A DNA stretch of 64,000 nt from Anaerolineae bacterium. GTDB lineage: Bacteria > Chloroflexota > Anaerolineae > Aggregatilineales > Phototrophicaceae. The stretch is from contig JAJDZQ010000158.1 in the NCBI GenBank assembly GCA_022824565.1, forward strand, positions 1 to 64,000, in the 5' to 3' direction. Of the stretch, positions 3,645 through 22,602 are shown one piece after another. The position numbers were made by a program, and so were the translations under genes. The notes beneath the pieces were generated by a model, which had not been told where the DNA came from, did no database searches, and saw only the letters and a list, made by a program, of their open reading frames with translations. Within the stretch, counting starts at the first letter, position 1, and every line of letters begins with the position of its first letter.

Positions 3645-5279
3645 TTAGGCCAGCCGTTGATGAAGATGACCCATCTCGGCGCGGTATTCTGCCGCTGCGC
3701 CGATGAAGGCATCAAAAAGCGGGTGCGGGCGATTGGGGCGACTAAGAAACTCGGGATGGAATTGGCAGCCCAGCATAAAGGGGTGGTCTTGCAACTCGGC
3801 GATCTCGACCAAAATGCCATCGGGGCTTAGACCGCTAAAAGCCACGCCAGCCTGCAGAAATGCTTCGCGGTAGGCGTTGTTGAATTCAAAGCGATGGCGG
3901 TGCCGTTCCATGACTTGCGGTCTGCCATACGCAGCAGACGCCAATGAATTGCTTTGCAAGACGCATGGATATTCGCCCAGCCGCATCGTACCGCCCATAT
4001 CGGTGATGGCGCGCTGCTCTAGCATCAGGTCGATGACCGGGTGTGGCGTGCTGACATCAAACTCGGAGCTGTTGGCGTCATCCAGGCCGAGCACATTGCG
4101 CGCGTATTCGATGCACATCACCTGCATGCCCAGGCACAAGCCCAGATAGGGCACATTGTTCTCGCGCGCGTGGGCGGCTGCGCTGATCTTGCCTTCGATG
4201 CCACGATAGCCGAACCCGCCCGGCACGACGATGCCATCCAGCGCTGCCAGTTCGTCCAGACGCTTGCCTTTTTCCAGCTCGCCCGAGTGAATCCAGCAGA
4301 TTTCGACAGCTTGTCCGCGCTGTATCGCGGCATGTGCGAGCGATTCCTTGACCGACATATAGGCATCATGCAATTCGACATATTTGCCAACAATGCCGAT
4401 GCGCAGACACCCCGAGGCTTGGCGGCCGCGCCTCAAGATGGCGCGCCAGCCGTTCAGATCGGGCGGCTGGCACTGCAAGCGGAATCGTTCGCAGATGAAA
4501 TCGCCCAAGCCGCTGGCTTCGATCATCAGTGGCACGGCATAAATGCTGTCGGTGGTCTCGAGTGGGATGACGGCATTTTCGTCTACATCGCAGAATAGCG
4601 CGATTTTGTTGATGATCTCTTGATTCACCGGGTGGTCGGTGCGAGCGATAATCACATTGGGCTGGATGCCGATTCCGCGCAGCTCGCGGGCGCTGTGCTG
4701 GGTTGGCTTGGTCTTGAGCTCGCCTGTCGCGCCGATGTGCGGCAAGAAGGTCACATGCACATTGAGCGTATCGCGGCGGCCAAACTCGGTGCGCAACTGA
4801 CGAAGCGCCTCCAAGAAGGGCAGGCTTTCGATATCGCCAGCTGTGCCACCCACCTCGACAATGACGACATCCGCATGGGTGCGCTGTCCCAGCAGCTTGA
4901 TGCAGCGCTTGATTTCGTTGGTGATATGCGGCACGACCTGGATCGTGCCACCCAGGTAATCGCCCTTGCGCTCTTTTTCTATGACAGTCAGATAAACCTG
5001 CCCGGCCGTTACATTGGACAAGCGACTGACTGGCTCGTCCACGAAACGTTCATAATGCCCCAGGTCGAGGTCGGTCTCTGCGCCATCTGAGGTGACGAAG
5101 ACTTCGCCATGCTGATAGGGATTCATCGTGCCGGGGTCGACATTGAGATAGGGGTCCAGCTTTTGGATGGCGACTTTCAATCCGCGAGCCTTCAAGATGC
5201 GCCCGATAGACGCGACAGTCAGGCCTTTGCCAACCGAGCTGACGACGCCCCCCGTGCAGAAGATGTATTTCGGTTTCAC
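3645..5279 (-). CDS. pyrG: CTP synthase
   Basis: Makes CTP from UTP, ATP and glutamine. 544 aa, the usual length. The N-terminal synthetase domain opens with the P-loop segment GGVVSSVGKGL, followed by LDPYLNVDPGTMNP. The C-terminal class I glutamine amidotransferase domain has the nucleophile Cys in GLCLGMQ and the His-Glu pair in QFHPEF. It begins 19 bp downstream of the roadblock gene and is probably transcribed with it. Confidence 0.96.
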   Translation of the reverse strand: MKPKYIFCTGGVVSSVGKGLTVASIGRILKARGLKVAIQKLDPYLNVDPGTMNPYQHGEVFVTSDGAETDLDLGHYERFVDEPVSRLSNVTAGQVYLTVIEKERKGDYLGGTIQVVPHITNEIKRCIKLLGQRTHADVVIVEVGGTAGDIESLPFLEALRQLRTEFGRRDTLNVHVTFLPHIGATGELKTKPTQHSARELRGIGIQPNVIIARTDHPVNQEIINKIALFCDVDENAVIPLETTDSIYAVPLMIEASGLGDFICERFRLQCQPPDLNGWRAILRRGRQASGCLRIGIVGKYVELHDAYMSVKESLAHAAIQRGQAVEICWIHSGELEKGKRLDELAALDGIVVPGGFGYRGIEGKISAAAHARENNVPYLGLCLGMQVMCIEYARNVLGLDDANSSEFDVSTPHPVIDLMLEQRAITDMGGTMRLGEYPCVLQSNSLASAAYGRPQVMERHRHRFEFNNAYREAFLQAGVAFSGLSPDGILVEIAELQDHPFMLGCQFHPEFLSRPNRPHPLFDAFIGAAAEYRAEMGHLHQRLA

Positions 5280-20864: not shown

Positions 20865-21176
20865 ATGTACGCAATCATCCGCAGCGGCGGAAAACAATAT
20901 CGAGCGGAAGTCGGCGCGACTATCGATGTCGACCGGCTGCCCAATGAAGTCGGCGATCAGCTTGAGATCGACGATGTGCTATTGGTTGCCGATGGCGACG
21001 CAGCGAAGATCGGCGCGCCCAGGCTGGAGGGCGCAGCCGTGGCAGCCACGGTGGTCGAGCAATTCCGCGGCAAAAAGATCATCGTATACAAATATCGTCA
21101 GCGCACGAATTATCGGCGCAAGCAAGGACATCGGCAATACTACACGCGGTTGCGCATAGACGAGATCCGCGTATAG
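20865..21176 (+). CDS. rplU: 50S ribosomal protein bL21
   Basis: 103 aa. Starts [17 protein letters not shown], the family N-terminus; the C-terminal [19 protein letters not shown] matches the bL21 signature. Binds 23S rRNA near bL20. Preceded by a GGAG site and followed after 23 bp by rpmA, the standard order. Confidence 0.96.
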
Positions 21177-21199: not shown

Positions 21200-21487
21200 A
21201 TGGCACACAAAAAAGGTGGCGGTTCTTCCAGCAATGGGCGCGACAGCAATGCCAAACGGCTTGGCGTCAAGAATTATGGCGGGCAGTATGTGATCCCCGG
21301 CAACATTATCGTGCGCCAGCGCGGCAGCAAATTTCACCCAGGCGAAGGCGTCGGCATGGGCAAGGATTATACGATCTTTGCCACGCGCGAAGGTTTTGTG
21401 CACTTCGAGAAAATGCGCGGACGCAACGGTCAAAAGCGGATTTCTGTGCATGCCCAGCACGCAAAGACCGGGCAATCTTTGAACTAA
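21200..21487 (+). CDS. rpmA: 50S ribosomal protein bL27
   Basis: 95 aa. Starts [16 protein letters not shown], with the family [12 protein letters not shown] and [14 protein letters not shown] segments. The N-terminal tail that reaches the peptidyl transferase centre begins directly at AHKKGG, with no cleavable extension of the Firmicutes kind. GAAGGAG precedes the ATG. Confidence 0.96.
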
Positions 21488-21544
21488 TTTTCCCAACATC
21501 AGTCGTTTGCGCCACTCGCAGCAGCCGCAAGCGCGGAGGATAAT

Positions 21545-22003
21545 ATGAAACAAGGCATTCACCCGGCCTGGCATGCCACGCCTGTGCGTTGCATGACCTG
21601 CGGCACAACCTGGACGACCGGCTCGACAGTCGAATCGCTCACTGTCGAGATCTGCTCCAATTGTCATCCTTTCTACACAGGCGAACAGCGCATTGTCGAT
21701 ACCGAAGGCCGCGTCGACAAGTTCATGAAACGTTTGCAGCAGCGCGACCAAATTCGCTCGCAGCAGGTCGAGCGCGAAGAAGAACGTACGCCGCTCGACT
21801 TGCCGCTGACCGATTTGAAACTCGGCGAACGTTACACAACGATCTTGCAAGAGCACGGAATCGCTGTCGTCTCGGATGTGTTGGATCGGCTGGGCGAAGA
21901 AGACGATGACAACAGCATCCTGGCAATCCAGGGCATTGGGCGCAAGGTCGTCAGCGATATGAAGAAGTCGCTGCGCGCGCGCGGTTACGAGCTTAGCAAC
22001 TGA
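21545..22003 (+). CDS. rpmE: Ribosomal protein bL31 fused to an RpoA-CTD-like helix-hairpin-helix domain
   Basis: 152 aa, about twice the normal bL31 length. Residues 1 to about 65 are bL31: [10 protein letters not shown] start, zinc ligands Cys16, Cys19, Cys37 and Cys40, then [22 protein letters not shown] charged linker (about 66-84) follows. Residues about 85-150 resemble the RNA polymerase alpha C-terminal domain and other tandem HhH modules: [14 protein letters not shown], a second helix with VVSDVLDRL, and [16 protein letters not shown], where GIGRK occupies the hairpin position. GGAGG precedes the ATG. The bL31 part is certain; the relation of the extra domain to RpoA-CTD is by eye. 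Likely a ribosomal protein with an added RNA- or protein-binding tail. Confidence 0.88.
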
Positions 22004-22020: not shown

Positions 22021-22602
22021 ATGAAGCCCGAAGCTGGCAGCATAGAAGTCATCTGCGGCAGCATGTTCAGCGGCAAATCGGAGGAGTTGATTCGCCGGGT
22101 GCGGCGCGCCATCATCGCCCGCCAAAAAGTCGCCGTATTCAAACCCCAGATTGACGACCGCTACGGCATCCAGCATATCACCAGCCACGACGGCCAGACT
22201 GTGGCGGCCATCGCCGTGGCTTCTGCGACAGAAATCTTCGAGCGCGCCAATGGCTCGAGCACCGTGGTTGCGATAGACGAAGCGCAATTCTTTGACAGCG
22301 CGATTGTGCCGGTGGTGCAGCGGCTGGTGGACGAGCACGACATCCGCGTAATCATCGCGGGGCTGGATACCGATTTTCGCGGCGAGCCCTTTGGCGCCAT
22401 GCCAGACTTGCTGTGCATCGCCGAGAAGGTGAACAAGCTACACGCGATCTGTGTGGTTTGTGGTGGCGATGCCAGCCGCACCCAGCGCTTGGTCGATGGG
22501 GCGCCAGCCGCTTATGATGATCCTATCATCCTGGTCGGCGCGCAGGAGTCTTACGAAGCCCGCTGCCGGTTCTGCCATCAGGTCGGGAGCCCGCAGAACT
22601 AG
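22021..22602 (+). CDS. tdk: Thymidine kinase
   Basis: Phosphorylates thymidine to dTMP for salvage. 193 aa, type II family. Walker [12 protein letters not shown], Walker [11 protein letters not shown]; structural zinc ligands in CVVCGG and CRFCHQ. Begins 17 bp after the bL31 gene and may be read with it. Its TAG stop and the sucD stop on the other strand share one CTAG (22599-22602). It complements thyX at 42.5 kb. Confidence 0.94.

Follow-up and report, generated by a model that had tools for sequence, protein, structure and literature searches.

A ribosomal protein bL31 of Anaerolineae with a C-terminal domain homologous to that of RNA polymerase alpha

Introduction

Ribosomal protein bL31 is normally a one-copy component of the ribosome. 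The C-terminal domain of the RNA polymerase (RNAP) alpha subunit (aCTD, PF03118) is a promoter-DNA reader, whose UP-element contact residues we take to be R265, N268, N294, G296, K298, S299 and E302 in E. coli numbering. AR1 and AR2 of E. coli NusA are the familiar counterparts of a C-terminal module of Anaerolineae NusA that is compared with the bL31 domain below.

On the ribosome, the N-terminal part of bL31 contacts 5S rRNA and uL5, while its C-terminal part contacts uS13, uS14 and uS19 together with helix 42 of 16S rRNA in the 30S head (PMC7530986, in the portion cited here), and the last eight residues of E. coli bL31 matter for subunit association (a portion of PMC9966373). Current structural models of coupling are called rather controversial in a passage of the review PMC10931766. 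A polymerase domain that ends a universal bacterial ribosomal protein would be a natural probe of the linkage between ribosome and RNA polymerase. bL31 and the aCTD are each known, but we have not found their combination described: a search by title and abstract among open-access papers returned none on a fusion of the bL31-aCTD type.

Results

An intact bL31 gene with a C-terminal extension

The window, a 64,000-nucleotide stretch of DNA from an Anaerolineae bacterium, contains a ribosomal protein gene group on its plus strand. Directly upstream of rpmE lie rplU (20865-21176), encoding a bL21 of 103 residues with no added domain in this genome (PF00829, E 9.9e-40, residues 1-101), and rpmA (21200-21487), encoding a bL27 of 95 residues (PF01016, E 6.3e-37). 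Both genes are ordinary and adjoin that of bL31, confirming the L21-L27-L31 group recognised in the first-pass annotation. As delimited by its open reading frame and by genome search, rpmE occupies 21545-22003 and encodes an extended bL31 of 152 residues, starting with ATG at 21545 and ending with the stop codon at 22001-22003. A GGAGG at 21535-21539, read from the sequence as its likely ribosome-binding site, ends five bases upstream of the start, and a thymidine-kinase-like gene, an open reading frame named by eye, follows on the same strand (22021-22602).

The bL31 core comprises residues 1-66 (21545-21742). PF01197 (Ribosomal_L31) matched residues 1-64 with E 6.3e-29 and 100.4 bits against a cut-off of 27, and the zinc cysteines C16, C19, C37 and C40, as in the type-A zinc form, were invariant across 34 aligned orthologues, in agreement with the earlier description of the N-terminal half as a zinc-binding bL31. 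The protein was the single match in its own genome at E<=0.001 (assembly about 95% complete). It is thus like type-A bL31 (PF01197, TIGR00105) in its first 66 residues, its four cysteines, its operon setting and its single copy. Beyond the core, a charged linker (residues 67-82, 21743-21790) leads into a module of residues 83-152 (21791-22000), recognised by profile, structure and residue comparisons. In a PDB search, the bL31 chains listed were mostly shorter than 100 residues, with some longer chloroplast or construct chains; unlike these, the window protein bears a folded addition of about 70 residues.

Relatives share the extension. A bL31 match was found in 58 of 61 relatives, and in all 58 it reached at least residue 149 with no internal stop, one of them starting at a contig end. 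Since the same frame is open through the domain in every matched relative, a frameshift or gene-joining artefact, which the first-pass annotation had considered, is ruled out. One genome of a wider class sample (G298) has a stop inside bL31. Among 31 sequences of the genus, median pairwise dN/dS was lowest in the core (0.029), intermediate in the module (0.118) and highest in the linker (0.230), indicating that the module is under purifying selection.

Identity of the second domain

Sequence comparisons showed that the second domain of bL31 is homologous to the aCTD. In the window protein itself, PF03118 (RNA_pol_A_CTD) matched residues 76-143 with E 0.0022 and 18.1 bits, the NCBIfam rpoA models matched residues 60-151 with a best E of 1.8e-6, and phmmer matched the Thermus aCTD structure 1doq (E 0.0026). 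The orthologues show that this similarity exceeds chance: all 34 that were aligned match PF01197, and 30 of them match PF03118 at E<=0.01 (best 4e-14); the bL31 domain of several relatives exceeds the PF03118 cut-off, with up to 41.6 bits, and the bL31 loci of others, for example G038, G042, G043 and G006, lie below it. A profile built from the bL31 alignment found aCTD chains in the PDB (best 3gfk, E 1.8e-9). By hhalign, the 87 bL31 modules of the main group, to which the window's module belongs, scored 99.59% against 13 RpoA-CTDs of the class (E 4.4e-24) and 99.73% against 17 NusA modules of the class (E 1e-26), the best among the profiles compared, while a control with bL31 cores scored 0.28%.

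AlphaFold modelled the full-length protein with middling confidence (pLDDT 72, pTM 0.36), including a helix of residues 54-80 that extends from the bL31 core into the linker, and the domain alone with a pLDDT of 80.4. In Foldseek searches the whole model matched bL31s at ranks 1-45 and RNAP alpha at ranks 46 and 50. With the domain alone, ranks 1-49 among the best 50 listed were, going by their titles and lengths, RNAP alpha chains or CTDs, with RAD51 at rank 50; TMq ranged from 0.59 to 0.74 with a best E of 2.5e-3, and none of the matches listed reached E 0.001. VIA-align of the domain gave Z scores up to 9.4, against 8.5 and 8.2 for the helix-hairpin-helix (HhH) lobes of Dmc1 and RAD51, and because these lobes score nearly as high, we base the family assignment chiefly on sequence and less on fold. 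The aCTD-like fold of the model and the RpoA-CTD profile matches agree on the C-terminal part, and a disordered tail is ruled out by the domain model and by purifying selection.

The first-pass annotation had proposed an RpoA-CTD-like HhH domain, a reading borne out by hhalign, by the orthologues and by Foldseek but not by the window protein's own PF03118 score, which falls below the Pfam cut-off of 23.8 bits; we therefore name the domain aCTD-homologous and do not call it an annotated PF03118 member. The HHH_5 family (PF14520) reached 12.7-15.1 bits against a cut-off of 27 and, weaker than PF03118 in the Pfam scan, was rejected as the domain's identity. The window protein has no alpha N-terminal assembly domain, residues 1-64 being bL31, and at another locus (G000:C31) the genome has an RpoA-length frame that includes a CTD, so that RpoA keeps its own; in 21 of 21 relatives there is such a frame whose CTD exceeds the Pfam cut-off. 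A third, weak PF03118 match in the genome (C183, E 0.031) falls in a ComM-like ATPase and was judged by eye to be due to chance. Taken together, 21545-22003 is a genuine, intact bL31 gene with an aCTD-homologous domain joined at the C-terminus of its product.

Distribution among Anaerolineae

In the class sample 292 of 298 genomes gave a match, which in some was to RpoA alone and otherwise to bL31, and at least 92 of these matches, one of them G298, extended to residue 136 or beyond by hand count, a lower bound since the listing runs down to E 2.3e-24. In the phylum sample 291 of 301 genomes gave a match. Among the matches listed there, 28 spanned the domain, all of them from the window's own class (38 genomes in this sample), and those listed from other Chloroflexota classes all ended by residue 97. 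The lineage-specific character that had been suggested for the extension thus holds in this survey, with the domain-spanning bL31 matches listed all in Anaerolineae. Reading the bL31 proteins of a chosen, non-random set of genomes, we found the module in 93 and its absence in 48; it was present in 18 of the 57 Anaerolineae families read and absent from 39, with family f31 mixed. Named carriers are metagenome-assembled genomes (MAGs) of Anaerolineae, Anaerolineales and Anaerolineaceae, along with others whose titles say no more than Chloroflexi or Chloroflexota. By contrast, Chloroflexia, for example Chloroploca and Viridilinea, have a 99-residue bL31 without the module, and no module was detected by HMM in bL31s of other phyla among the best 80 of 574 relatives.

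Some other Chloroflexota bL31s (L168, L169, L108, L180, L188, L190) have long Pro/Glu/Lys/Ala-rich or repetitive low-complexity tails in proteins of 144-312 residues. In adding C-terminal mass to a conserved ribosomal protein, the bL31 module resembles such lineage-specific extensions; unlike them, it is folded, has an identifiable origin and is common to the polymerase. The zinc cysteines have been lost in the bL31s read from two families, f42 (L228, L236, L238, L240-L245, L250, L251), which keep the aCTD-like domain, and f11 (L191-L193), which are without it.

Residues and charge of the modules

The window module can be aligned with the aCTD residue by residue: R96 corresponds to R265, T99 to N268, G130 to N294, G132 to G296, K134 to K298, V135 to S299 and D138 to E302, and K140, K141 and R144 to positions 304, 305 and 308. 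Whereas all 13 RpoA-CTDs of the class retain R265, N268, N294, G296, K298, S299 and E302, this full set of UP-element contact residues is absent from the main-group bL31 modules. Among the 87 main-group modules, R265 is retained in 89%, G296 in 98% and K298 in 83%; N294 is replaced by G in 98%, giving a canonical GxG hairpin, and E302 by D in 80%, while N268 and S299 are retained in 43% and 29%. Their last helix is basic, with K304 in 91%, K305 in 84% and R308 in 97%, and the hairpin and last helix together carry on average +4.1, compared with +0.3 in RpoA. The bL31 module is therefore like the aCTD in sequence profile, fold and the equivalents of R265, G296 and K298, and unlike it in being carried by a ribosomal protein, in having GxG for NxG and a basic last helix, and in the partial loss of N268 and S299. 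Over the whole module, mean net charge is -1.4 in the main group and -4 in the window protein.

A second bL31 group of 12 modules (families f23, f48 and f52) is without the basic helix, with a mean hairpin and last-helix charge of 0.0. The same measure is +0.2 in bS16 modules, again with no basic helix, and +2.5 in two bL21 modules. Anaerolineae NusA modules, by hhalign the closest to the main group among the profiles compared, differ from it in the same respect, with no basic last helix and a mean of +0.4. The R265 equivalent is present in 17 of 17 NusA, 4 of 4 bS16, 2 of 2 bL21 and 2 of 2 RpoC modules and in 88 of 100 bL31 modules. The residue pattern of the main group leans towards nucleic acid as a ligand, and it could partly reflect structure instead of binding.

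The same module on other proteins

A PF03118 search of 75 genomes of the class, from which 30 loci were fetched and read and their proteins named by eye, gave a match above the cut-off in every genome. The C-terminal part of NusA bears the module in 16 genomes read, in two tandem copies in G084 and in G147. Two RpoC loci that were read (L274, L285) contain an internal aCTD-like insert, and ten of the 75 genomes have a PF03118 match in a frame of 1477-1560 residues. Among ribosomal proteins other than bL31, loci read showed a module on bL21 in G134, on bS16 in G134, G102 and G097, and on both in G065; bL21 and bS16 with an aCTD-like C-terminal domain lie at L187 1996-2592 and L194 1492-2079, both on the minus strand. 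In searches of 20 chosen genomes with the whole G065 proteins as queries, bL21 with the module was found in four (G065, G160, G231, G134) and bS16 with the module in ten (G065, G215, G231, G160, G244, G179, G197, G102, G134, G097), the latter counted where a match ran end to end or both parts lay in one frame. The arrangement is thus repeated in independent MAGs and extends over several Anaerolineae families. The four genomes among the 75 that have the module on bS16 or bL21 (G065, G134, G102, G097) have a bL31 without it. The bL21 and bS16 modules of G065 group together in the module tree (support 93 with the bS16 of G102), which suggests copying between ribosomal genes.

A search for the module in 111 genomes, 98 of them from other classes, gave a match in 109, with many extra matches in RpoA-length frames. 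Ten of the other or doubtful matches were read: a second RpoA, a contig-end fragment, a DNA-ligase-like protein and seven more, of which none looked ribosomal. The spread of an aCTD-type module among Anaerolineae proteins, comprising bL31, bL21, bS16, NusA, RpoC and a few unrelated proteins, is described here as new.

Origin of the bL31 module

One genome, G147, captures a local copy. On a single 34.5-kb contig, a nusA with its tandem modules (L339 1616-3637, minus strand) stands divergently beside rplU-rpmA-rpmE on the plus strand, with rplU at 3873 and rpmE at 4502-4993 (whole arrangement L339 1616-4993). In DNA, the bL31 module of G147 and the second nusA module, which lie about 2.6 kb apart, are 86.2% identical over 188 bp; with the first nusA module the identity is 83.6% over 183 bp. 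For comparison, the longer NusA-RpoA module matches in this and neighbouring families are mostly 67-71% identical. In a blastn set of 16 module copies without bL31 and bL21 modules, the NusA tandem pair of G084 is 85% identical over 211 bp and the NusA of G084 about 77-81% identical to that of its family member G119; apart from the NusA-RpoA matches, the others are short pieces, and one piece of 100% identity comes from overlapping flanks. In G119, the sister genome of G147 (branch support 98), bL31 is 96 residues long and has no module. Because the sister bL31 is short and the nusA of relatives has modules, we infer the direction nusA to rpmE, and the case indicates that copying from nusA can bring the module to rpmE. 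The case shows one route by which ribosomal proteins acquire folded domains.

In a module tree of low resolution (66 columns), the G147 bL31 module falls with the NusA modules of its own family, the main-group bL31 modules lie on one side of a branch with support 79, and the f23/f48/f52 group lies on another (support 91). A tree of bL21, bL27 and the bL31 core (138 rows, 85 with the module) requires at least seven changes, three of them forced by starred branches, and in the AU test on this tree a single module clade stays compatible (p 0.238). On these sequence comparisons a separate gain in G147 is likely, and one in the second bL31 group is possible. The older main group of the window may go back to an early copy from nusA or rpoA in part of Anaerolineae.

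Function of the bL31 module

The first-pass annotation had named rRNA and RNA polymerase as candidate partners of the extended protein. With the bL31 core on the 50S central protuberance and the tail on the 30S head, the linker of about 16 residues would place the module at the head. There it may act as a helix-hairpin-helix grip on the 16S rRNA of the head, or on nearby RNA, through R96, G132 and K134 together with the conserved basic helix of K140, K141 and R144, and would strengthen or tune the intersubunit bridge formed by bL31. We tentatively favour a nucleic-acid grip at the 30S head, with rRNA near the bridge as its likeliest target, because the main group combines a basic helix with a GxG hairpin. 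Any such grip would be confined to one face, since the whole modules are slightly acidic, and a grip on rRNA cannot account for every carrier because the second bL31 group and bS16 lack the basic helix. The bL31 module has probably stopped reading promoter DNA, and if it does grip rRNA, it would be a clear example of how a reader of promoter DNA can be adapted to the ribosome.

The main rival reading, possible though we lean against it, is that the module docks bL31 to the transcription machinery by imitating or meeting the partners of the aCTD (NusA, sigma region 4, RNAP or nucleoid DNA); such docking, on the same footing, would promote transcription-translation coupling or co-transcriptional ribosome assembly. 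It gains from the range of carriers within one class, where RpoA, NusA and RpoC belong to transcription and bL31, bL21 and bS16 to the ribosome, a pattern that hints at a physical connection of a new kind between ribosome and polymerase. The R265 equivalent, found in all compared NusA, bS16, bL21 and RpoC modules and in most of those of bL31, also speaks for it. The deoxynucleoside-kinase-like, glycosyltransferase-like and XRE-like carriers, however, have no evident place in coupling, and the main bL31 group has diverged from RpoA at several of the positions that contact DNA. Because bL21, bS16 and bL31 are located at distant sites on the ribosome, one shared docking geometry is unlikely. On the side of docking, E. 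coli NusA-AR2 binds the aCTD (PMC4650657), the bL31 tail is on the 30S head (PMC7530986), and NusG forms a bridge from RNAP to the 30S close to uS10 (PMC12820379). A broader version, in which the aCTD is a copyable tag moved separately from transcription genes onto bL31 (perhaps three times), bL21 and bS16, so that ribosomes would display polymerase docking domains and be tethered, independently of NusG, to the transcription complex or the nucleoid, we regard as rather doubtful; the pattern of repeated transfer would mean more if a shared function were shown.

The tandem and scattered copies (the NusA pairs of G084 and G147, three in one open reading frame of G179, one in a kinase-like frame of G084), the local nusA-rpmE copy in G147 and the 39 of 57 families that do without the module on bL31 would all fit a stable domain that is duplicated by chance and tolerated anywhere, harmless or slightly stabilising on bL31 and of little function. 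We consider this unlikely, given that the module is old, is kept in all 58 matched relatives with a dN/dS of 0.12, and has in the main group a basic motif 84-97% conserved over many families. Very improbable is a role off the ribosome in which the module of spare bL31 binds the promoter DNA of ribosomal genes and regulates their transcription: N268, N294 and S299 have each disappeared from most main-group modules and bL31 is normally present in one copy per ribosome, against which stand the mostly retained R265, G296 and K298 equivalents and the repression by E. coli bL31 of its own mRNA (reported in a passage of PMC10931766).

Further aCTD-like proteins

Several proteins outside the ribosome and the polymerase were seen to carry the module. 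In G084 (L262), a single MAG of 79% completeness, an aCTD-like module lies in the middle of a deoxynucleoside-kinase-like open reading frame, and in G179 (L340) a glycosyltransferase-like frame of 1057 residues or more has three aCTD-like modules in tandem. An XRE-like regulator of G064 bears the module, and proteins of G072, G120 and G073 have several each, together with a sigma-4-like region. Multi-repeat aCTD-like proteins were read at L263, L264, L265 and L293, in some of which the repeats are followed by a helix-turn-helix resembling sigma region 4.
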